A program made the position numbers and the translations under genes. Under the pieces are notes generated by a model. The model saw only the letters and a program-made list of their open reading frames with translations. It did not search any database and was not told the origin of the DNA. Shown piece after piece: positions 52,229 to 63,222 of a DNA stretch of 64,000 nucleotides; the stretch's first letter is position 1; every line of letters starts with the position of its first letter. This DNA comes from Auraticoccus cholistanensis (GTDB lineage: Bacteria; Actinomycetota; Actinomycetes; Propionibacteriales; Propionibacteriaceae): positions 695,911-759,910 of the forward strand of contig NZ_WPCU01000010.1 in the NCBI RefSeq assembly GCF_009742705.1, given 5' to 3'.

Positions 52229-53011
52229 ATGATCGAGATCCAGAGCCCCACCGGACTGGCCCGGGCCCGGGAGACCGGCGCCCTCGTCGGCGACATCCTG
52301 CACGAGCTCAAGGGGCGCAGCACCCCGGGCACCAACCTGCTCGACATCGACCGCTGGACCCGTGAGCTCATCGACGCCGCCGGGGCGACGTCCTGCTACG
52401 TCGACTACGCCCCCTCCTTCGGCCGCGGCCCGTTCGGCCACCACATCTGCACCGGCGTGAACGACGCCGTGCTGCACGGCCGGCCGCACGACTACGCGCT
52501 CGCCGACGGCGACCTGCTCAGCCTCGACCTGGCCGTCGTGCTCGACGGGGTCGCGGCCGACGCGGCCATCAGCTTCGTGGTCGGCGGCTCGCAGCCTCCG
52601 GAGAGCCTCGCCCTGATCGGCGCCACCGAGCGGGCCCTGGAGGCCGGCATCGCCGCCGCCGGCCCCGGAGCCCGCCTCGGCGACATCTCCGCCGCCATCG
52701 GGGCGGTGCTGACCGGGGCGGGGTACCGGGTCAACACCGAGTTCGGCGGACACGGCATCGGGTCGACCATGCACCAGGACCCGCACGTCCCCAACGCCGG
52801 TCGTCCCGGCCGCGGGTTCCGGCTGCGTCCGGGGCTGCTGCTGGCCCTGGAGCCGTGGGTGATGGCCGACACCGACGAGCTGGTCGTCGACCCGGACGGG
52901 TGGACGCTGCGCAGCGCCACGGGCTGCCGGACGGCGCACAGCGAGCACACCATCGCCATCACCGACGACGGCGCGGAGATCCTGACCCTGCCGCGGCGGG
53001 CGCGGACCTGA
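52229..53011 (+). CDS. map: type I methionine aminopeptidase
   Basis: 260 residues from ATG 52229 (GAGGAAG upstream); an in-frame ATG at 52187 is possible. All five metal ligands are in place: Asp in SLDLAVV, Asp in AADAAI, His in GGHGIG, Glu in LALEPW and Glu in SEHTIAI. Removes initiator Met. Actinobacteria usually have two or more map genes; this one, coupled to a private XRE regulator and lacking a zinc-finger extension, may be the accessory copy. Confidence 0.93.
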   Translation: MIEIQSPTGLARARETGALVGDILHELKGRSTPGTNLLDIDRWTRELIDAAGATSCYVDYAPSFGRGPFGHHICTGVNDAVLHGRPHDYALADGDLLSLDLAVVLDGVAADAAISFVVGGSQPPESLALIGATERALEAGIAAAGPGARLGDISAAIGAVLTGAGYRVNTEFGGHGIGSTMHQDPHVPNAGRPGRGFRLRPGLLLALEPWVMADTDELVVDPDGWTLRSATGCRTAHSEHTIAITDDGAEILTLPRRART

Positions 53012-53110
53012 GTGCCTGCGCCGGCCCACCGGGGCCGCTGCTCCCCGGGCACGCCCCCGGCTCCCGGGGAACGGCCGGGCGCCGTCGCCCCGGGACCTAG
53101 AGTGGGTCCG

Positions 53111-53764
53111 GTGAGCGGCAACCTGGTGTGGATCGACTGCGAGATGACCGGCCTCGACCTGGAGTCCGACGCCCTGGTGGAGGTGGCCGCGCTGGTCACC
53201 GACGGCGAGCTCAACGTGCTCGGCGAGGGCATCGACGTGGTGATCAGGCCCCCGGCCGCCGCCCTGGAGCAGATGGGCGACTTCGTCCGCGAGATGCACA
53301 CCGGCTCCGGTCTGCTGGCCGAGCTCGAGCACGGCCTGGAGCTGGCCGAGGCCGAGCAGCTCGTGCTCGACCACGTCCGCCAGTTCGTCCCCGAGCCGCG
53401 CAAGGCCCCGCTGGCCGGCAACAGCATCGGCACCGACCGGGCCTTCCTGCTGCGGCAGATGCCCCGTCTCGAGGCCCACGTGCACTACCGCAACGTCGAC
53501 GTCTCCTCGTTCAAGGAGCTGGCCCGCCGCTGGTTCCCCAAGATCTACTACCACGGCCCGGCCAAGGGCGGTAACCACCGGGCGCTGGCCGACATCCAGG
53601 AGTCGATCGAGGAGATGCGCTACTACCGCGAGACCCTGCTCGTCGCCCCGCCCGGGCCCGACACCGCCACCTGCAAGGAGGTCGCGGCCCGCCACGCCGG
53701 CTCGCTGACCGGCCTCGTGGTGGCCGCCCCGGTCGAGACCGCCGAGGACGCCGGCGACAGCTGA
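53111..53764 (+). CDS. orn: oligoribonuclease
   Basis: 217 residues from GTG 53111; TAGAGT 7 bases before it (leaderless). DEDDh exonuclease: WIDCEMTGLD, then NSIGTDRAFL and YHGPAKGGNHRALADI, with the late His and Asp. Degrades 2-5 nucleotide RNAs and pGpG in the cytoplasm. The extra C-terminal 30 residues are Ala/Thr-rich. Followed by tRNA-His. Confidence 0.97.
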   Translation: MSGNLVWIDCEMTGLDLESDALVEVAALVTDGELNVLGEGIDVVIRPPAAALEQMGDFVREMHTGSGLLAELEHGLELAEAEQLVLDHVRQFVPEPRKAPLAGNSIGTDRAFLLRQMPRLEAHVHYRNVDVSSFKELARRWFPKIYYHGPAKGGNHRALADIQESIEEMRYYRETLLVAPPGPDTATCKEVAARHAGSLTGLVVAAPVETAEDAGDS

Positions 53765-53837
53765 TTTCGTCCCGGCGGCGGGATCTGGCTACACTGTTCC
53801 AGCCGTCGACCAGGGTGCATCCCGCCCGGGCGACCGT

Positions 53838-53911
53838 GGTGGGTGTAGCTCAGTTGGCAGAGCACCTGGTTGTGGTCCAGGGGGCCGCGGGTTCAAGTCC
53901 CGTCATCCACC
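53838..53911 (+). tRNA. tRNA-His (anticodon GTG), CCA not encoded
   Basis: Body 53839-53911, GTGGGTGTAGCTCAG... with D stem GCTC/GAGC, anticodon loop TTGTGGT (anticodon GTG), T arm GCGGG-TTCAAGT-CCCGT, acceptor GTGGGTG with CATCCAC. The His-specific extra G(-1) at 53838 faces C73 (53911). A TACACT box lies at 53790-53795. Confidence 0.95.
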
Positions 53912-53919
53912 CCGCAGAG

Positions 53920-53950
53920 CTGGCCCCGTCGGTCCGTCCGACGGGGCCAG
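53920..53950 (+). terminator. 13-bp hairpin terminator of tRNA-His
   Basis: CTGGCCCCGTCGG (53920-53932) and CCGACGGGGCCAG (53938-53950), loop TCCGT, nine bases after the tRNA. A few T residues follow. Confidence 0.75.
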
Positions 53951-54100
53951 TCCCGTTCCCACCCCTCGCTGTGGCAGCCGGGACGCACCGGACGCCAGCG
54001 GACCGCGGTCACGCCTCGGGCAGGGCCCCCTCCGCCCGGCCGGGCGGCACGGCCGCGACGTCCGGCCGCGGCCCCGTCGACGCCTGCCGCTCCTCCGGCG

Positions 54101-54114
54101 TAACAGTCCTGTTA
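54101..54114. promoter_or_regulatory. inverted repeat TAACAG-TC-CTGTTA (GlnR-like spacing)
   Basis: Perfect 6-base arms. With flanking bases it reads GTAAC-N6-GTTAA, close to the actinobacterial GlnR half-site arrangement (GTnAC, 11 bases apart) but with one mismatch. 118 bases before the transporter gene. Nitrogen control would suit a nitrogen-compound locus. Low certainty. Confidence 0.35.
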
Positions 54115-54155
54115 ACCGCCTGGGCAGACCCTTCCCGGGCCCCTCCGCCGGTTCG

Positions 54156-54173
54156 TATCTTGTATACAAGATA
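54156..54173. promoter_or_regulatory. 18-bp perfect palindrome, GntR operator
   Basis: TATCTTGTATACAAGATA is fully palindromic. The core TTGTATACAA is typical of FadR/FCD-type GntR operators (inverted TTGT/ACAA-like half sites). It includes TATCTT, a possible -10, and lies 59 bases before the binding-protein ATG. The FCD GntR gene of the same operon is the obvious ligand. Confidence 0.8.
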
Positions 54174-54231
54174 TTCCGCGAGAGGCTGGCGACGTTGCCA
54201 CCGCGCACACCGAGCCACGAAGGAACTCCCG

Positions 54232-55107
54232 ATGAAGAGGACAGCTCGACGCCCCGGCGCCCTGCTCCTGGCGGCCGCGGTGCTGGTCGCCGCCAGCGCC
54301 TGCTCCAGCGAGCCCGAGGCCCCCACCGGCCCCGTCACCGTCACCCCGCCGGCCACCCTGGTGGAGGCGGGTGAGCTGACCTACGGGGTCGCCGCCACCT
54401 TCCCGCCCTTCGAGTACAAGGACGGCACCGAGCTGACCGGTTTCGACGTCGACATGGCCGAGAGCCTGGCCGGCTACATGGGCCTGCGGCCCTCACCCCT
54501 GGACATCGACTTCGACGGCCTGATCCCCGCCCTGGGTGGAGGACGCGTCGACATCATCAACTCCGCGATGTACATCAACGAGGAGCGTGCCGAGCAGGTG
54601 GACTTCGTCCCCTACCTGGTCGTCGGCGAGGCGCTGCTCGTCCCCAAGGGCAACCCGCTGGGCATCGCCACCATCCCCGACGACCTCTCCGGGCGCACCA
54701 TCGCGGTGACCCGCGGCGCCATCGGCGAGACCTACATGGAGCAGTTCAACACCGAGCTCGAGGCCAAGGGGCTGGAGCCGATGACGATCATGGCGCTGCC
54801 CACCAACCAGGACGCCCTGCTGGCCGTGACCTCGGGGCGCGCGGACGGGTTCGACACCTCGACCCCCGGCGCGGCCTACACGCTCACCGAGCGCGGGGAC
54901 GACTTCGACATCGCCGGCACCTTCGAGCTGGGCACCCAGATCGGCATCGCGGTCCGCAAGGGCGACACCGAGACCCGTGCCGCCGTCGAGGCGGGGCTGC
55001 AGGAGCTGGTCGCCGACGGCACCTACCGGGAGCTGATCGCCCGCTACAACCTGCCGCCGGAGTCCGCCCTCCTCGGCGAGCCGGCCGCCACGGAGTCGGG
55101 TGACTGA
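54232..55107 (+). CDS. polar amino-acid-type ABC transporter substrate-binding lipoprotein
   Basis: 291 residues from ATG 54232 (GAAGGAAC upstream). Lipoprotein signal with lipobox ASAC at about 25-28. Family 3 binding protein: TYGVAATFPPFEYKDGTELTGFDVDM, INSAMYINEERAEQVDF and DLSGRTIAVTRG. Binds an amino acid or opine-like compound outside the membrane. First gene of the long cluster; overlaps the permease by eight bases. Confidence 0.95.
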   Translation: MKRTARRPGALLLAAAVLVAASACSSEPEAPTGPVTVTPPATLVEAGELTYGVAATFPPFEYKDGTELTGFDVDMAESLAGYMGLRPSPLDIDFDGLIPALGGGRVDIINSAMYINEERAEQVDFVPYLVVGEALLVPKGNPLGIATIPDDLSGRTIAVTRGAIGETYMEQFNTELEAKGLEPMTIMALPTNQDALLAVTSGRADGFDTSTPGAAYTLTERGDDFDIAGTFELGTQIGIAVRKGDTETRAAVEAGLQELVADGTYRELIARYNLPPESALLGEPAATESGD

Positions 55108-55816
55108 GGTGCAGCTGCTGGAGTACGTGGTCTCGACCGCGTTCCTGACGGCCACGCTGGTCACGATCGCGCTGACCGTGCTGTCGATGGCGCTCGGCGT
55201 CCTCGGCGGGCTGCTGCTGGCGCTCGGCGCCAGCTCCCGCTTCGCGGTCCTGCGTGGCGTGGTCGCGGTGTACGTGTGGCTGTTCCGGGGCACGCCGGTG
55301 CTGCTGCAGCTCATCTTCGTCTTCAACGTGCTGCCGCTGGTCGGGCTGCGGTTCGACTCCTTCACCTGCGCGATCATCGCCCTCAGCCTCAACGAGGCCG
55401 CCTACATGGCCGAGATCATCCGCGGCGGCCTGCTGGGCGTGGACCGGGGCCAGCGCACCGCCTCGCACATGCTCGGGCTGACCCGGGTCCAGACGATGCT
55501 GCACGTCGTGCTGCCCCAGATGGTGAGGCTCGTGCTGCCGCCCACCGGCAACCAGCTGATCGGCATGCTGAAGACGTCCGCGCTGGCGTCCGTGGTGGCG
55601 GTGCAGGACCTGCTGCTGGTCGCCCAGCGCACCGCCGCCGGCAACTTCGACTACGTCAACGCGCTGCTGGCGGCCGCGGTGCACTACCTGCTGCTCACCA
55701 CGCTGTGCACCCTGCTCGTGCACGCCGTCGAGGTGCGGATGGACGTGTCGCGCAAGGCCCAGCGCCGCCAGCGGCAGGAGACGCGGGCGCTCGTCGCAGA
55801 AGGAGGACGTCGGTGA
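55100..55816 (+). CDS. amino-acid-type ABC transporter permease
   Basis: 238 residues from GTG 55100, overlapping the previous gene. Five or six spans of the HisMQ type; FRGTPVLLQLIF and the EAA-loop equivalent NEAAYMAEIIRGGLLGVDRGQ. One permease gene only, so it probably forms a homodimer. Confidence 0.94.
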   Translation: MTEVQLLEYVVSTAFLTATLVTIALTVLSMALGVLGGLLLALGASSRFAVLRGVVAVYVWLFRGTPVLLQLIFVFNVLPLVGLRFDSFTCAIIALSLNEAAYMAEIIRGGLLGVDRGQRTASHMLGLTRVQTMLHVVLPQMVRLVLPPTGNQLIGMLKTSALASVVAVQDLLLVAQRTAAGNFDYVNALLAAAVHYLLLTTLCTLLVHAVEVRMDVSRKAQRRQRQETRALVAEGGRR

Positions 55817-56550
55817 GCGAGATCCTGATCGAGACCCAGGGCATCACCAAGAGCTACGCCTCGACCACCGTGCTGTCGGACGTGAGCCTGCGAATCCACC
55901 GCGGCGAGTGCGTCGTGCTGCTCGGACCCTCGGGGGCCGGCAAGTCCACCGCGCTGCGGTGCCTGGCCGGGTTGGAGGAGCTGCAGGCCGGCTCGGTGGT
56001 GTTCCAGGGGGAGACCTTCGTGACCCCCGAGGGCACCCACCGCCACCTCCGCGGCGCCATCGGCATGGTGTTCCAGCAGTTCAACCTGTTCCCGCACCTG
56101 AGCGTGCTGGACAACGTCGCGCTGGCCCCGCGGCGGGTGAAGAAGGTGGCGCTGCCGCAGGCACGCCGCCAGGCCGAGGAGCTGCTCGACCTGGTCGGCC
56201 TCGGCAACCGCCGCGGCTACTTCCCGCACGAGCTGTCGGGGGGTCAGCAGCAGCGGGTGGCCATCGCCCGGGCGCTGGCCATGGAGCCCACGCTGATGCT
56301 CTTCGACGAGCCGACCAGCTCCCTCGACCCCGAGCACACCCGCGAGGTGCTGCGGGTGATGCGGCAGGTCATCGACCTCGGGATGACCGTGGCGGTGGTG
56401 ACCCACGAGATGTCCTTCGCCCGGCAGAGCGCGGACCGCGTCCTGTTCATGGACGAGGGCCGGGTCGTGGAGGACGCCCCGGCCGCCCGGTTCTTCACCG
56501 CGCCGCAGAGCGCACGGGCCCGGGCCTTCCTGCGCGAGGAGGACGAGTGA
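55813..56550 (+). CDS. amino-acid-type ABC transporter ATPase
   Basis: 245 residues; GTG overlaps the permease stop. Walker A GPSGAGKST (about 36-44), Q-loop VFQQFNLFPHL, signature LSGGQQQRVAIARAL, Walker B LMLFDEPTSSLDP, H-loop VVTHEMSFA. GlnQ/HisP class. Completes the importer with the two genes before it. Confidence 0.96.
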   Translation: MSEILIETQGITKSYASTTVLSDVSLRIHRGECVVLLGPSGAGKSTALRCLAGLEELQAGSVVFQGETFVTPEGTHRHLRGAIGMVFQQFNLFPHLSVLDNVALAPRRVKKVALPQARRQAEELLDLVGLGNRRGYFPHELSGGQQQRVAIARALAMEPTLMLFDEPTSSLDPEHTREVLRVMRQVIDLGMTVAVVTHEMSFARQSADRVLFMDEGRVVEDAPAARFFTAPQSARARAFLREEDE

Positions 56551-57218
56551 GCGTCCCGGGTGCGCCCGGGGAGCCCCCGCACTCCCCCACCTGGCGCAAG
56601 CAGGACTGGGCCTACGCCCAGCTGCGGGAGTGGGTCGTCGAGGGCCACCTGCGCGAGGGGCAGAAGCTCGACGAGGCGCGGCTCGCCGACGAGCTGGGGG
56701 TGAGCCGCATCCCGCTGCGGCACGCGCTGTCCCGGCTCGCCTCGGAGGGTCTGGTGGTCGACCGGCCGCACCGCAGCCTGCTGGTGGCCCCGATGTCGCT
56801 CGCCGACGCCGAGGACGTCTACGCCGGCCGGACCGTGCTGGAGGTGCTGCTCGCCACCACCGCCACCGAGCGGGCCGAGCCGGGTGACGTCCAGCGGGTG
56901 CGGGCGGTGCTGGACGTGCAGGCCGAGCACACCAGCGGCGGCCACCACGAGCACTCGCGCCACGACGACCGCAACTTCCACTTCGCGATGTACGAGACCG
57001 CCCGGATGGCCGCCACCTTCGCCGCCCTGCAGCGGCTACGCCTGCTGAGCGAGCGCTACATCCACCTCTACCTCAAGCAGCCGAGCCGGCTGCAGGAGTC
57101 CCTGAGCCAGCACCGCGCCATCTTCGAGGCGTTCGCCGCCGGCGACCGCGACCGGGTCGCCGAGCTCACCGAGCGCCACGTCACCGAGGGCATCCAGGTC
57201 CTGCGCGGCCTGCTCTGA
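56547..57218 (+). CDS. GntR-family (FCD) transcriptional regulator
   Basis: 223 residues; GTGA overlap with the ATPase. N-terminal winged HTH (LADELGVSRIPLRHALSRLASEGLV, about 45-70). FCD ligand domain with metal-binding residues: Asp of HDDRNFHFAMY, then the late His in QHRAIFEAF and ERHVTEG. Expected to bind the palindrome at 54156-54173 and respond to the imported compound or an intermediate. Confidence 0.95.
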   Translation: MSVPGAPGEPPHSPTWRKQDWAYAQLREWVVEGHLREGQKLDEARLADELGVSRIPLRHALSRLASEGLVVDRPHRSLLVAPMSLADAEDVYAGRTVLEVLLATTATERAEPGDVQRVRAVLDVQAEHTSGGHHEHSRHDDRNFHFAMYETARMAATFAALQRLRLLSERYIHLYLKQPSRLQESLSQHRAIFEAFAAGDRDRVAELTERHVTEGIQVLRGLL

Positions 57219-57226
57219 CCTCCTCC

Positions 57227-57248
57227 GGGGCCGTCCTCCGGCGGCCCC
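57227..57248 (+). terminator. hairpin inside the cluster (attenuator-like)
   Basis: GGGGCCG (57227-57233) and CGGCCCC (57242-57248) in the only real gap (87 bases) of the cluster, between gntR and the aminotransferase. It might lower expression of the downstream genes relative to the importer. A palindrome ACCCGCGCGGGT follows at 57274-57285. Confidence 0.35.
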
Positions 57249-57305
57249 CCACGACCACGTCCGACCCGCTGCGACCCGCGCGGGTGAACCCCAGCAAGGA
57301 GAACC

Positions 57306-58517
57306 GTGTCCCACCTGCCCACCGCCCTGGCCCGACTCGACATGCCCGAGCTGAGCGAGCACATCGGCCTGTCGCTGCGAGACGCCGAGCGCGAGCTGGA
57401 GAACGGTCCGGGCCCCGCCGACCTGCTCGACGCCACCTACGCCAACACGCACCGCTTCCCGCCGCCGGACTGGGCGGTGGAGACCTTCGTGGCCGCGGCG
57501 GGCGGTGCGGGGATGACCTACACCCCCTACCGCGGCGACACCGGCGTGCGGGAGGCCGTCTCCCGCAACGTCCGCGAGGTGCTGGGGCTGCCCAGCGGCG
57601 ACGGCCTCGAGCCGATCCTGACCCCGGGCACCCAGGGCGCGCTCTTCGTGGCGCTGGCCTCGCTGCTGGAGCCGGGCGACCTGGTCCTGCTGCCCGACCC
57701 CGACTACCTGTCGACCGAGCGGATGGTCCGCTACTTCGGGGCGGAGGTGCTCCGGATCCCGATGACCTTCCCCGACGACGACGGCCGGCCGGTGCTCGAC
57801 CCCGAGGCGCTGGCCGAGGCGGCGGCACGCGGACCCAGGCTGATGGTCTTCTCCCACCCCAACAACCCGACCGGCATGGTCTACCAGGACTCCACCCTGC
57901 TGCAGATCGCCGAGCTGGCCGTCGAGCACGACTTCTGGGTGCTGGCCGACCAGCTCTACTGCCGCCTCGTCTACGACGGCCTGACCTTCACCCACCTGGC
58001 CAACCTGCCGGGGATGGCCGAGCGCACCGTGACCCTGCTGGGACCGTCCAAGACCGAGTCGCTGTCGGGCTACCGGCTGGGTGTGGGGCTGGCGCCCTCC
58101 TCGGTGGTGGCCCGGATGGAGGACGTGCAGTCCTGCACGGCGCTGCGCGCACCCTCCTACGCCCAGCACCTGCTGACCCGCTGGCTGGCCGACGACCAGG
58201 ACTACCTGCGGCTGCGGGTCCGGGAGTACCAGGCGCTGCGGGACATGACGGTGGAGCGCATCAACGCCTCCGGCGTGATGCGGGTGCGTCCCTCCTGCGG
58301 CAGCTCCTACCTCTTCCCCGAGCTGCTCGTCGACGTCGGCGACCGCGAGATCTCGCTGCGGCTGAAGCGGGACGCCGGCGTCGTGGTCAACCCCGGCTAC
58401 CAGTTCGGGCTGGGCGGTCTGGGGCACATGCGCCTCTGCTTCGCCCAGGACGAGCAGGAGTGGTCGGCGGCCCTGGACCGGGTGCTGGACGTGGTCGCCG
58501 GGTACCCGCTCCGGTGA
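57306..58517 (+). CDS. class I/II PLP-dependent aminotransferase
   Basis: 403 residues from GTG 57306 behind AAGGAG. Fold type I: LLPDPDYLS, HPNNPTGMVY (cofactor/carboxylate Asn), ADQLYCRLVY (Asp-x-x-Tyr), PLP-Lys in GPSKTESLSGYRLG (about 255), Arg in HMRLCF. Transfers an amino group from an amino acid to a 2-oxo acid; close to MalY/aspartate-type enzymes, so a C-S or C-N lyase is possible too. Confidence 0.92.
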   Translation: MSHLPTALARLDMPELSEHIGLSLRDAERELENGPGPADLLDATYANTHRFPPPDWAVETFVAAAGGAGMTYTPYRGDTGVREAVSRNVREVLGLPSGDGLEPILTPGTQGALFVALASLLEPGDLVLLPDPDYLSTERMVRYFGAEVLRIPMTFPDDDGRPVLDPEALAEAAARGPRLMVFSHPNNPTGMVYQDSTLLQIAELAVEHDFWVLADQLYCRLVYDGLTFTHLANLPGMAERTVTLLGPSKTESLSGYRLGVGLAPSSVVARMEDVQSCTALRAPSYAQHLLTRWLADDQDYLRLRVREYQALRDMTVERINASGVMRVRPSCGSSYLFPELLVDVGDREISLRLKRDAGVVVNPGYQFGLGGLGHMRLCFAQDEQEWSAALDRVLDVVAGYPLR

Positions 58518-59614
58518 GCGCCGTGCCCGACGAGGCCGGCGCGCTGGTCCTGCAGGGCCTGCGGTGGTGGTCGGTCCGGCACCCGCTGCGTCGCCCGCTG
58601 GCGCACGCCTCGGTCACCACGTCCACCCTGCAGGCGCTGGTGGTCCGCGCCGACTTCGCGGGCGTCTCGGGGTGGGCGGAGGTGCGCACCGACGGCGGCT
58701 ACGCCACCGGCGAGGACGCGGCCGTCGTGCTCACCGCCCTGACCGGCACCCCGCTGCTCGGCCGGACGGTGCAGCAGGGCACCGCCGGGCTGCTGCCCCG
58801 GTCCCGGCTGGCGGCGATGGCCCTCGACGTCGCCGCCCACGACGCGGCCGCCCGCCTGGCCGGGCGTCCCCTGCACCGGCTGCTCGGCGGCCCGCCCACC
58901 AGCCGGCTGGCGACCCACGCCCAGGTCCCCTTCGGCACGGTCGAGGAGGCCGGGGTCCGGGCCCGCGAGGCGGTCGGCGCCGGCTTCACCCGGATCAAGA
59001 TCCGCGTCGGCGGACCGGACGTGGGCCACGACGTGGCCCGGGTGGCCGCCGTGCGGGCCACCGCGGGGGACGGCGTCGAGCTGCTGACCGACGCCAACGC
59101 CGGCTGGGACGTCCCCCGCGCGGTCGAGGCGGCCCGCCGGCTCGCCGCGCTCGGGGTCAGCTGGCTGGAGCAGCCGGTGTCCGGGGTGGCCGACCTGGCC
59201 CGGGTGAGCGCCGCCGGCGGCGTCCCGGTCCGGGCCGACGAGTCCGCCCGCGACGCCCGGGCCGTCGCGGACCTGGCCGCCGCGGGTGCCGTGCAGGGCG
59301 TCCACCTCAAGCTGGAGAAGTGCGGCACCGTCGCCGCGCTGCGCGCCGCCGTGTCCGCGGCCCGCTCGGCCGGGCTGTCGGTCGCGCTGGGCCAGATGGA
59401 CCAGGGACGTCTGGGCTGCGCGGCCACCACGGCGCTCGCCGTCGGGCTCGGCGTCGAGGAGGCCGAGCTGTGGGGCTGCGCCGACATCGACGCCGCCGAC
59501 GACGTCGCCGGCCCCCTCACCCTGCTCGACGGCGCGGTCCTGGTCCCCCAGGGGCCCGGGCTCGGCGTCGAGACCACCCTCACCGCACCACCGTCAGGAG
59601 CCCTGCCACGATGA
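58514..59614 (+). CDS. enolase-superfamily enzyme (mandelate racemase/muconate lactonizing family)
   Basis: 366 residues; GTGA overlap with the aminotransferase. Barrel metal ligands Asp193 (TDAN), Glu219 (LEQPV) and Asp242 (ADES). Opposite-face Lys266 (HLKLEK) as in dipeptide epimerases, but the KxK motif reads Lys162-Ile-Arg164, replacing the usual catalytic Lys with Arg. One-base chemistry (dehydration, cycloisomerisation or a changed epimerisation) is more likely than simple 1,1-proton transfer. Confidence 0.9.
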   Translation: MSAVPDEAGALVLQGLRWWSVRHPLRRPLAHASVTTSTLQALVVRADFAGVSGWAEVRTDGGYATGEDAAVVLTALTGTPLLGRTVQQGTAGLLPRSRLAAMALDVAAHDAAARLAGRPLHRLLGGPPTSRLATHAQVPFGTVEEAGVRAREAVGAGFTRIKIRVGGPDVGHDVARVAAVRATAGDGVELLTDANAGWDVPRAVEAARRLAALGVSWLEQPVSGVADLARVSAAGGVPVRADESARDARAVADLAAAGAVQGVHLKLEKCGTVAALRAAVSAARSAGLSVALGQMDQGRLGCAATTALAVGLGVEEAELWGCADIDAADDVAGPLTLLDGAVLVPQGPGLGVETTLTAPPSGALPR

Positions 59615-60840
59615 CCGACCAGACCGCCCGCGTCGCACCGCCCTCCGGCGCGCCCGCCCCCGACGTCCCCGCCCCCGACGTCCCCGCCCCCGACGTCCCC
59701 GCCCTCGACGTGGTCGCGCTCACCCGCGCGCTGGTCGCGGTGGACAGCACCAACCCCGGCGGCGACGAGCCCGCCGCCCTCGCCGTGCTCGCCGACCTCT
59801 TCAGCAGCCGCGGGCTGTCGCCGGAGGTCGACCGCTACCGCGACGGCCATGCCAACCTCGTGGTCCGGGTCCCCTTCGGCCCCGGGCCCACGCTGATGCT
59901 CAACTCCCACATCGACGTGGTCCCGGCCGGCGGCGGCTGGGCCCACGACCCCTTCACCCCAGTGGTGGCGGACGGGCGCCTGTACGGCCGGGGCAGCGCC
60001 GACGCCAAGGGCAGCCTGGCGGCGATGGCCGTCGCGCTGCTGGAGCTGGTCGACTCAGGCGCCGCGCTGTCCGGCACCGTGGTCTTCACCGCCGTCGGCG
60101 ACGAGGAGGGCGGCAGCACCGGCGCCCGCCACCTCATCACCTCGCTGCGCCCCGACGCCTGCGTGGTGGGCGAGCCCACCGGTCTGCAGCTGCTGTCGGC
60201 GCACAAGGGGTCGGTGCGTCCGGTGATCGAGGTCCGGGGTGTCCCGGCGCACGCCGCCACCCCGCACCTGGGCGCGAACGCGGTCGAGGGCGCGGCCGAG
60301 CTGGTGCTGGAGCTCCGCCGGCTCGCCGTCGAGCTCCTCGACCGCGACCACGAGCTGACCGGCGGGCCCACCATGACCACCGTCTTCGTCAGCGGCGGCG
60401 AGGCGCCGAACGCCGTGCCGGAGCGCTGCCGGATCACCCTCGACCGCCGGCTGGTGCCCGGCGAGGACGACGCCGGCGCGCTCGCCGAGGTGCAGGCCGT
60501 GCTCGACCGGTTCAACGCCGGCCACCCCCGGCTGAGCGCCGCCGTCGTCGAGTGCGCACCCAGCACGGGCGGCCCCTCGGAGACCCCGCGCGACCACCCC
60601 TTCGTGGCCGCCGCGGTGGCCGGCATGGCGGCCGCCGGCGAGCGCACCGACCTGGGCGGCCTGGTCGTCAACTGCGACATGACGACCTTCCGCGCCGCGG
60701 GGGTGCCGACGGTGATCGTCGGCCCGGGCACCCTGGAGGTGATGCACGCCATCGACGAGCACGTGCCCGTCGAGCAGCTGCACCGGGCGGTGGCCGTGCA
60801 CCGGGCCATCGTCGAGAGCTACCTGGCCGGTGCCCGGTGA
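59611..60840 (+). CDS. M20-family metallopeptidase/deacylase (ArgE/DapE type)
   Basis: 409 residues; ATGA overlap. Metal-binding NSHIDVVP, YGRGSADAKG (bridging Asp), TAVGDEEGGSTGA (catalytic and ligand Glu), VGEPTG, and a late His in the helical end. Central dimerisation domain present. Residues about 16-35 are a Pro-rich repeat (APDVP units). Hydrolyses an N-acyl amino acid, dipeptide or carbamoyl compound. Confidence 0.94.
   Translation: MTDQTARVAPPSGAPAPDVPAPDVPAPDVPALDVVALTRALVAVDSTNPGGDEPAALAVLADLFSSRGLSPEVDRYRDGHANLVVRVPFGPGPTLMLNSHIDVVPAGGGWAHDPFTPVVADGRLYGRGSADAKGSLAAMAVALLELVDSGAALSGTVVFTAVGDEEGGSTGARHLITSLRPDACVVGEPTGLQLLSAHKGSVRPVIEVRGVPAHAATPHLGANAVEGAAELVLELRRLAVELLDRDHELTGGPTMTTVFVSGGEAPNAVPERCRITLDRRLVPGEDDAGALAEVQAVLDRFNAGHPRLSAAVVECAPSTGGPSETPRDHPFVAAAVAGMAAAGERTDLGGLVVNCDMTTFRAAGVPTVIVGPGTLEVMHAIDEHVPVEQLHRAVAVHRAIVESYLAGAR
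59656..59713. repeat. 15-bp tandem repeat in the M20 gene 5' end
   Basis: Three identical 15-base units GCCCCCGACGTCCCC at 59656-59700, then a partial fourth. Encodes Ala-Pro-Asp-Val-Pro repeats as a flexible N-terminal arm. Confidence 0.9.
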
Positions 60841-61652
60841 GGCTCGCCCTGGCCCAGTGCGGGCCCGCTCCCGACGCCGACCCCGTCGCCGGCTCCGTCG
60901 CGGCCGTGGCCGCCGCGGTGACCCGTGCCGGCGAGCAGGGCGCGGAGCTGGTCGCCACCAGCGAGCTGGTGGTGGGCGGCTACCGCACCGACCTGATCCG
61001 GCAGGGCGACCTGCCGACGGTGCTGGCGGGGCCCGGCGACCCCCGGCTGGACCCGCTGCGGGAGGCGACCCGCCGCTCGGCCACCACCGCCCTGGTCGGG
61101 GCGGCGGTCGCCGGCCCCGCGGGCGCGCTCAACGCCCTGCTCCGCATCGCCCCGGACGGCGAGGTCGACGTCGTCTACGCCAAGGTCCACCTCTGGGAGG
61201 AGGAGCGGCGGGTGTTCGTGCCCGGGTGGGGGCCGGTCCTGCTGGAGCACGCCGGGGTCCGGATCGGGCTGGGCATCTGCTACGACGCCGCCTTCCCCGA
61301 GTACTGCCGGGCGCTGGCCCGCAGCGCCGACCTGCTGCTGTTCTCCTCCGCCTTCGCCGCCGGCGAGGAGGAGCGCCGCTACGACATCTACCACCCGTCC
61401 CGGGCGCTGGAGTCGGGCGTGCACGTCGCCGTGGTCAACGCCGTCGGCGAGCAGGGCGGTGCCACCTTCTTCGGCCGCAGCCAGCTCCTCGACCCCTGGG
61501 GGCGGCGCACCGCCGTGGCCGGGGACGCGCCCGAGGTCGTCGTGGTCGACGTCGACCCGGCGGCGTGCCGCACCGCCCGCCAGCAGCTGCCCTACCTCCA
61601 GGACCTCCAGACCCACTACGCCGTCACCACCGCCGGAAGGAACCCGTCATGA
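60837..61652 (+). CDS. carbon-nitrogen hydrolase (nitrilase superfamily amidase)
   Basis: 271 residues; GTGA overlap. Glu43 (TSELVVGG), Lys in VYAKVHLW (about 118) and Cys in GICYDAAFPE (about 149) complete the catalytic triad. The sequence is of the amidase/N-carbamoyl branch, not a true nitrilase. Cleaves an amide or ureido group to acid and ammonia. Confidence 0.93.
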   Translation: MRLALAQCGPAPDADPVAGSVAAVAAAVTRAGEQGAELVATSELVVGGYRTDLIRQGDLPTVLAGPGDPRLDPLREATRRSATTALVGAAVAGPAGALNALLRIAPDGEVDVVYAKVHLWEEERRVFVPGWGPVLLEHAGVRIGLGICYDAAFPEYCRALARSADLLLFSSAFAAGEEERRYDIYHPSRALESGVHVAVVNAVGEQGGATFFGRSQLLDPWGRRTAVAGDAPEVVVVDVDPAACRTARQQLPYLQDLQTHYAVTTAGRNPS

Positions 61653-62797
61653 CCCCCGTCTTCAGCCGCGAGGAGCAGAGCTCGCGCCTCCACCGCTTCC
61701 AGCGCCAGCTGCAGCAGCAGTCCCTGGACGTCGCCGTGGTGAACACCCCCGAGAACATCTGCTGGCTGACCGGCCACGAGACCTCCGGCTACTACACGTA
61801 CCAGTGCCTGGTGGTGCCCGCCGAGGGCGAGCCGACGCTGCTGCTGCGCGAGACCGAGGTGGTCAACGGCGAGGCCACGACGTACCTGGACGACATCCGC
61901 GGCTTCGCCGACACCGAGGACCCGCTGCAACGCACGGCCGACCTGGTCCGCTCCCACGGCAGCTTCTCGCGGGTGGGCCTGGAGTCGCGCTCGTGGTTCT
62001 TCGTGCCGGAGAACCACTCCCGCCTGGTGGCTCTCCTGGGCGCGACGGAGGTGGTCGGCGTCGACCAGCTCGTCGCGCAGCTGCGGCTGGTCAAGTCGCC
62101 GGCCGAGATCGAGCGGCTGCGGGCCGCCGCGGCCATCACCGACGCCGGGGTCCGGGCGGCGGCGCTGGCGGCCGTCCCGGGCGCCCGCGAGCGGGACGTC
62201 GCGGCGGTGGCCTTCGCCACCATGATCCAGCAGGGGTCGGAGTACGTCGGCATGGAGCCGTTCGTGGCGTCGGGGCCGCGTGCCGGCAACATCCACGCGT
62301 CCTGGTCCGACCGGGTCATCCAGCCGGGCGAGGGCGTGCTGCTGGAGATGGCCGCGTCCAGCGGGCGCTACCACGCGCCCCTGATGCACACCGTCTGGAC
62401 GGGTGAGCTGGACCCGGTGGCCGCCGCGATGGCCGAGGCCTGCCGGGCGGCCCGCGACGCCACCGTCGCCCTCGTGCGTCCCGGTCGCACGCCGGCCGAG
62501 GCGCACGCCCGCTGCCGCGCCACGGTGGACTCCTTCGGGCTGCTGGACACCTACCGCAAGCGCAGCGGCTACTCCGTCGGCATCGCCTTCGCCCCCGACT
62601 GGGGCGAGGGGCACATCCTGTCGCTGCAGGAGACCGAGCACCGCGAGTTCCAGCCGGGCATGGTGGTGCACGTGGTGCCCACGCTGCGCCGGGCCGGCGT
62701 GGGCGGCCAGGGCTTCTCGGCCACGGTGCTGGTCACCGAGGACGAGCCCGAGGTGCTGACCAGCTGCGACGTCACCGAGCCCGGGAGCCGACCGTGA
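61649..62797 (+). CDS. M24-family creatinase/ectoine-hydrolase-like protein lacking metal ligands
   Basis: 382 residues; ATGA overlap. N-terminal creatinase domain (NTPENICWLTGHETSGYYTYQC) and pita-bread domain. The canonical M24 metal ligands are changed: EMAASSGRYHAPLMHTV in place of the DxG/SDxTRT Asp pair, PGMVVHVVP without the Glu, and a final GFSATVL instead of RIEDTVL. SVGIAFAPDWGEGHIL matches creatinase and DoeA-type enzymes, which hydrolyse C-N bonds without metal. So probably a cyclic amidine or similar C-N hydrolase, not a prolyl peptidase. Confidence 0.88.
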   Translation: MTPVFSREEQSSRLHRFQRQLQQQSLDVAVVNTPENICWLTGHETSGYYTYQCLVVPAEGEPTLLLRETEVVNGEATTYLDDIRGFADTEDPLQRTADLVRSHGSFSRVGLESRSWFFVPENHSRLVALLGATEVVGVDQLVAQLRLVKSPAEIERLRAAAAITDAGVRAAALAAVPGARERDVAAVAFATMIQQGSEYVGMEPFVASGPRAGNIHASWSDRVIQPGEGVLLEMAASSGRYHAPLMHTVWTGELDPVAAAMAEACRAARDATVALVRPGRTPAEAHARCRATVDSFGLLDTYRKRSGYSVGIAFAPDWGEGHILSLQETEHREFQPGMVVHVVPTLRRAGVGGQGFSATVLVTEDEPEVLTSCDVTEPGSRP

Positions 62798-63222
62798 CCG
62801 CGGCGCCGCGGCCGGCCGGTGCGTACCGGGTGGCGCTGCGGCACGGCGACCAGGTGTTCGTGGCGGGGATGACCCCGCGCGAGGGCGACACCCTGCTGGT
62901 CACCGGCCAGGTGGGCAGCACCGTCGGCCTGGACGAGGGCGCCCGGCTGGCCGGGGTCGCCGCCCGGCGGGCCCTGGACGCGGCCACCACCTGCCTGACC
63001 GGGTCCGAGCGGCTGCTGCCGCTGTCGATGACGGTCTACGTCAGCACCCGCGAGGCCGACCTGCCGCTGTCCGCCGTCGCCGACGGGGCGTCGGAGGTGG
63101 TGGCGGAGGCGACCGGCTCGCTGCCGGTGCGGGCGGCCGTCGGCGTGTCCGGTCTCCCCGGCGGGGCCCCGGTCGAGGTGTCGCTGGTGCTGACCGCGGT
63201 GGGCGGGGGTGACGGTGGCTAG
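62794..63222 (+). CDS. RidA/YjgF-family imine deaminase
   Basis: 142 residues; GTGA overlap. The catalytic Arg is kept in LPVRAAVGV (about 111) and the Glu in APVEVSLV. Releases ammonia from reactive 2-imino acids, fitting the aminotransferase and dehydrogenase in the cluster. Ends with a rare TAG stop overlapped by the next gene. Confidence 0.9.

Follow-up and report, generated by a model that had tools for sequence, protein, structure and literature searches.

The operon and its upstream region

The window analyzed here, a 64-kb stretch of the Auraticoccus cholistanensis genome, contains ten plus-strand genes that encode an amino-acid-type ABC importer, a GntR regulator and several catabolic enzymes. 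They are preceded by a 318-bp intergenic region that extends from the tRNA-His gene (53839–53913) to the start codon of the solute-binding protein (54232). The first four genes of the cluster overlap, the next gaps measure 87 and 50 bp, and these are followed by more overlaps; because the genes overlap or sit 50–87 bp apart, all ten fit a single operon. The features of the region are as follows.

53920–53950, plus strand: hairpin with a 13-bp stem and a 5-nt loop, directly 3′ of tRNA-His
54099–54116, minus strand: conserved block CGTAACAGTCC(T/C)GTTAAC, a GlnR/MtrA-box-like direct repeat TTAAC-n6-GTTAC, containing an inverted repeat at 54101–54114
54156–54173, no strand assigned: 18-bp perfect palindrome TATCTTGTATACAAGATA with the core TTGT-AT-ACAA, probable operator of the FCD GntR regulator
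54232–55107, plus strand: family 3 solute-binding protein of an amino-acid-type ABC importer
55100–55816, plus strand: importer permease
55813–56550, plus strand: importer ATPase (GlnQ/EhuA-like)
56547–57218, plus strand: GntR regulator with an FCD domain, candidate reader of the palindrome
57306–58517, plus strand: PLP aminotransferase
58517–59614, plus strand: enolase-superfamily enzyme (muconate cycloisomerase/DgcA racemase-like)
59665–60840, plus strand: ArgE/DapE-type M20 deacylase
60840–61652, plus strand: carbon-nitrogen hydrolase
61652–62797, plus strand: M24 hydrolase (DoeA/ectoine hydrolase-like, under the models' cut-offs)
62794–63222, plus strand: Rid-family protein

Both domains of the GntR regulator score over their cut-offs (PF00392, 62.1 bits; PF07729, 73.6 bits), and no equivalog model reached its cut-off for the operon proteins among the families listed (the best 25 for three of the ten proteins). 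The cluster (54232–63222) looks rare among the genomes searched: at a threshold of E ≤ 1e-30, 2 of 147 genomes of the family, 3 of 391 of the order and 1 of 394 of the class (the window's own) contain relatives of the GntR regulator, and no plasmid match was obtained.

The conservation comparison involved two genomes, that of the window and one other genome of the genus (hereafter the sister genome). The latter carries the same operon, likewise located after oligoribonuclease and tRNA-His genes, with operon proteins that are 79–94% identical. The hairpin that follows tRNA-His is also present there with one stem base changed; it may mark where the tRNA-His transcript ends, but it lacks a T run and is absent from the list returned by a terminator scan. 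From tRNA-His to the conserved block (54099–54116), the window sequence (53914–54098) exceeds its counterpart in the sister genome by about 100 bases; the alignment shows gaps of 12 and 88 columns, and a 16-bp G+C palindrome (54032–54047) lies inside the longer of those gaps.

The 18-bp palindrome and its candidate regulator

An earlier, sequence-only reading of this DNA had described a perfect 18-base palindrome ahead of the importer, and this description was borne out at 54156–54173: the arms of TATCTTGTATACAAGATA, corresponding to TATCTTGTA and TACAAGATA, are 100% complementary without a gap, and the palindrome ends 58 bp 5′ of the start codon of the operon's first gene. Of 5000 dinucleotide-shuffled versions of the 318-bp region, 30 contained a perfect palindrome with arms of nine bases, and the 64-kb window contains two such palindromes, the other of which is G+C-rich. 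The motif scan of the genome that had been suggested in the same reading located the 18-mer at a single place when up to three mismatches were allowed (whole genome, 3.8 Mb in 17 contigs). We rejected the possibility that the palindrome is an RNA element: it folds weakly as RNA (−8.8 kcal/mol for 54150–54182, a value without a shuffle control), and the only Rfam match besides the tRNA was to a snoRNA, far below the gathering score and on the tRNA's minus strand.

The additional proposal that the palindrome lies over the likely −10 element of the importer was not confirmed and is plausible only. A scan of positions 53000–59000 for sigma-70-type promoters returned none, and the palindrome offers just the hexamer TATCTT (54156–54161), which fits the loose −10 form TAnnnT and is found without a −35 element. 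A weak terminator-like site (54136–54155) is located directly 5′ of the palindrome, which supplies its T-rich tail; one such site was found as compared to 0.5 expected in shuffles.

Alignment with the sister genome revealed that the palindrome is identical at all 18 positions before the orthologous operon (19 of 20 when one flanking base on each side is included, with one gap just outside), and that the block at 54099–54116 is identical at 17 of 18. The spacer between them (54117–54153) is identical at 18 of 37 positions and the leader that follows the palindrome (54175–54222) at 38 of 48 (79%). The distance between block and palindrome is 39 bp in the window's genome and 38 bp in its sister, and the palindrome ends 55 bp from the start codon in the latter. 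These segment identities look like a double footprint, seen in two genomes whose leader is well conserved too. The probability of 18 identities in 18 positions is about 2e-6 at the spacer's rate and about 0.015 at the leader's; since the adjacent leader is itself 79% identical, the identity of the palindrome is weaker evidence when judged at the latter rate. Absence of the palindrome from close relatives, which would have spoken against an operator, was not observed, as the one other genome of the genus (1 of 1) contains it.

The sites of FadR-subfamily (FCD) regulators are described by Suvorova et al. 2015 (PMC4494728) as A/T-rich palindromes with TKGT/ACMA boxes, in which GT and AC are separated by 3 or 2 nt. 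The core TTGT-AT-ACAA fits that consensus with the 2-nt spacing, and the palindrome further resembles those operators in its A/T-rich character, its TTGT/ACAA boxes and the adjoining operon of the regulator; it differs from them in that its symmetry runs through 18 bp without a mismatch. That study also reports that an arginine at position 28 of the regulator prefers G at the K of TKGT and that a proline at position 40 avoids G/C. The local GntR protein has Ala-28 and Pro-40 (positions assigned by eye, with the SRxPLR helix as an ungapped anchor), a combination that appears consistent with T, and not G, at the K position, as a tendency rather than a proof. We conclude that TATCTTGTATACAAGATA is probably the operator of the operon's own FCD GntR, with binding predicted from these features. 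The corresponding claim in the sequence-only reading is supported by the form of the site, its linkage to the operon, its single occurrence in the genome and its full conservation in the sister genome. Among 29 published papers containing the letters of TTGTATACAA, as judged by title and the start of the abstract, none dealt with a GntR operator, and a text search of the literature did not find the 12-mer or the 14-mer.

The cluster is also present in Kineosporia mesophila (L013) and in Actinopolymorpha alba (L014, order Propionibacteriales), with GntR proteins that are 48–49% identical to the one in the window; the search of contigs for GntR relatives gave three loci, with a weak match (28%) set aside. 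The palindrome is missing upstream of both of these remoter operons, TTGTATACAA occurs nowhere in either genome, and no operator was identified before either operon. This absence counts against a simple conservation argument. The recognition helices are nearly the same (SRIPLRQ and SRVPLRQ in the remoter proteins and SRIPLRH here), and position 28 (numbered by eye) is a glutamate in both relatives and an alanine here; because this position contacts the outer half-site base, a changed operator in those relatives is reasonable. Gene order in the Kineosporia and Actinopolymorpha clusters is nearly as in the window; the former has its carbon-nitrogen hydrolase gene at another position and in the opposite orientation, and no Rid match was seen in the stretch from the latter. 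Relatives of the GntR protein at E ≤ 1e-25 were found in 2 of 13 genomes of Kineosporia's family, one being Kineosporia mesophila itself; the second (36%) was dropped, as the surrounding 16 kb was without the cluster enzymes and only ABC ATPases were matched.

It is quite unlikely, in our view, that the palindrome is read by some other regulator whose gene lies elsewhere, such as a paralogue or an unrelated dimeric repressor. Four further places in the window's genome do encode relatives of the local GntR, and a search of 391 genomes of the order for the 14-mer TCTTGTATACAAGA, which represents the core of the palindrome, located it in five, two of which are the sister pair. In the three others, which belong to the same family, it is located 15–20 bp 5′ of a small MazE/AbrB-like gene that is followed by a PPDK-like gene (L044, position 8342; L045, position 8181; L046, motif at 1072 on the plus strand and gene on the minus strand). 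In two of these genomes Pfam assigns a MazE/AbrB-type domain to the small gene, which in the third was recognised by likeness only, and no GntR gene was noticed by eye among the reading frames listed near the three sites, two of the three contigs being short. Since the 14-base core also precedes MazE/AbrB-like genes where no GntR gene was noticed, it does not by itself name its reader; linkage to the operon, the single genomic occurrence of the 18-mer and its FadR-type core nevertheless favour the local regulator. In two of the three genomes with MazE/AbrB-like genes, a further CAAGATAT half-site is visible just 5′ of TCTTGTATACAAGA.

The conserved upstream block and GlnR

A second element, the inverted repeat TAACAG-TC-CTGTTA, is present 41 bases before the palindrome (54101–54106/54109–54114), as had been claimed. 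Its resemblance to a GlnR site, which formed part of the same claim, held only in part: although the element is conserved and the genome carries a gene for GlnR, the inverted symmetry itself is accidental. GlnR half-sites are direct repeats (PMC10704036), so that inverted symmetry is irrelevant to GlnR, and the sister genome has CCGTTA in place of CTGTTA, a change that removes one base pair from the inverted repeat and leaves the direct repeat intact. A GlnR site in the form of an inverted repeat was rejected on these two grounds.

Both genomes retain the minus-strand direct repeat TTAAC-n6-GTTAC and, within it, the AC-n9-AC arrangement that is described as essential for the binding of GlnR in M. 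smegmatis (PMC3662644). The 'one mismatch' to GlnR that had been reported for this element applies only to the minus strand, when it is compared with GTnAC-n6-GTnAC, a consensus form given in PMC10704036, where precedent for GlnR boxes on the non-coding strand is also found; against GTnAC-n6-GnAAC, two of the eight defined bases are mismatched on either strand. The latter match is at chance level (1213 of 2000 shuffled versions of the 152-bp upstream region do as well or better), and that region contains no exact match to GTNAC-n6-GTNAC. An overlapping minus-strand pair at 54089 has a single mismatch, a value reached in 182 of 2000 shuffles, and is lost in the sister genome. The block does match [TG]TNAC-n6-GTNAC exactly (0.23% of 3000 shuffles of the 152-bp region) and fits [GT]TAAC-n6-GNNAC (0.57%) and NNAAC-n6-GNTAC (0.83%), all three being loose patterns that were chosen with the site already in view. 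When up to three mismatches are allowed, the block is alone in the window's genome; its sister contains one further block-like place, CGTAACCGACCCGTTACC, with three mismatches (G001:C1:1118157–1118174, L028), and a reversed control pattern was equally frequent there.

GlnR is encoded on the same contig (L034 1081–1737; PDB 8hih, E 4.9e-81), about 38 kb from the palindrome and 28 kb beyond the end of the window. In both genomes glnA is preceded by four half-sites in register, GTAAC-n6-GAAAC-n6-GCAAC-n6-GGAAC, that include a box without mismatches, and the amt promoter has one mismatch-free pair in the sister genome and two overlapping one-mismatch pairs in the window's genome. The GlnR motif therefore stands where GlnR targets are expected. 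Given a genome that encodes GlnR and has canonical boxes for it ahead of glnA, GlnR control of the operon via the block at 54099–54116 is plausible, but unproven. The block resembles actinobacterial GlnR boxes, as these are described in PMC10704036 and PMC3662644, in its 5-bp half-sites, 6-bp spacing and AC-n9-AC, and in the presence of glnR in the genome. It differs from them in that it is a single minus-strand pair, placed 39 bp before the palindrome and with the two mismatches out of eight noted above, and it is likewise unlike the genome's own glnA region, where four tandem half-sites lie on the coding strand. The glnA half-sites (L021 1376–1413) follow an 11-bp register, and the last of them is 10 bp from a −10-like hexamer, TAGGGT.

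Several other explanations of the block were considered. It may be an element of a kind that we do not recognise (part of a promoter, or the site of another activator), or its conservation may be due to chance; we judge this somewhat unlikely. The chance-level match of the block to the main GlnR consensus and the restriction of the comparison to two genomes speak for it, while the contrast between 17 of 18 identities in the block and 18 of 37 in the adjoining spacer (p about 5e-5 for one position, uncorrected for the choice of block) speaks against it. That MtrA would bind the block, alone or in competition with GlnR, appears unlikely. The genome does encode MtrA (PDB 2gwr, E 7.7e-97), and in Streptomyces this protein competes with GlnR for nitrogen genes and binds GlnR boxes (PMC10704036); the tests performed here do not separate the two proteins, and so provide no evidence that favours MtrA. 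Finally, we regard as very unlikely a second and weaker GntR operator centred on GTTAAC (54111–54116), about five helical turns from the palindrome. GT-TA-AC fits the NyGTNxACNy core given for GntR sites in PMC4494728, and in the sister genome GTTAAC lies within a perfect 10-mer, CCGTTAACGG. The right half of that putative site is, however, not conserved, and the conserved block reaches 12 bases leftward; moreover, the auxiliary half-sites described for the family are 7–12 nt from the centre of the site, whereas the centres of GTTAAC and of the palindrome are 51 bp apart.

Predicted control of the operon

The reading that we prefer, with a probability of roughly 0.75, is that the palindrome would serve as the operator of the local FCD GntR and that the block at 54099–54116 would be bound by a different protein, most likely GlnR in minus-strand orientation. 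A GntR dimer bound to the half-sites CTTGTA/TACAAG, across or beside the promoter, would block transcription of the importer and catabolic genes; since gntR sits inside the operon as its fourth gene, the regulator would also repress its own synthesis. A small-molecule ligand that originates from the imported substrate would then bind the FCD domain and release GntR from the operator, and GlnR bound at the upstream block would raise expression under nitrogen shortage.

We put forward only tentatively, at somewhat less than even odds, the more specific proposal that this rare catabolic operon is governed by two stacked switches, a dedicated FCD GntR operator whose symmetry is unusually complete and a lone minus-strand GlnR site 38–39 bp upstream of it, such that it would open only when substrate and nitrogen shortage coincide. 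Dual control by substrate and nitrogen, if true, would point to a substrate that is used as a nitrogen source. More broadly, the biology is routine, corresponding to ordinary bacterial gene control; the candidate operator nonetheless provides a target that can be tested at the bench, and the ligand of the regulator would reveal the substrate of a rare importer-plus-catabolic cluster.

One further system invites comparison, with no claim of orthology. HypR of Streptomyces coelicolor, as described in PMC6608401, recognises the motif CTNTGC(A/C)ATGTCAC, which is without clear symmetry, unlike the palindrome; it is alike in that it is a GntR repressor with an FCD domain and acts on an operon for amino-acid catabolism.
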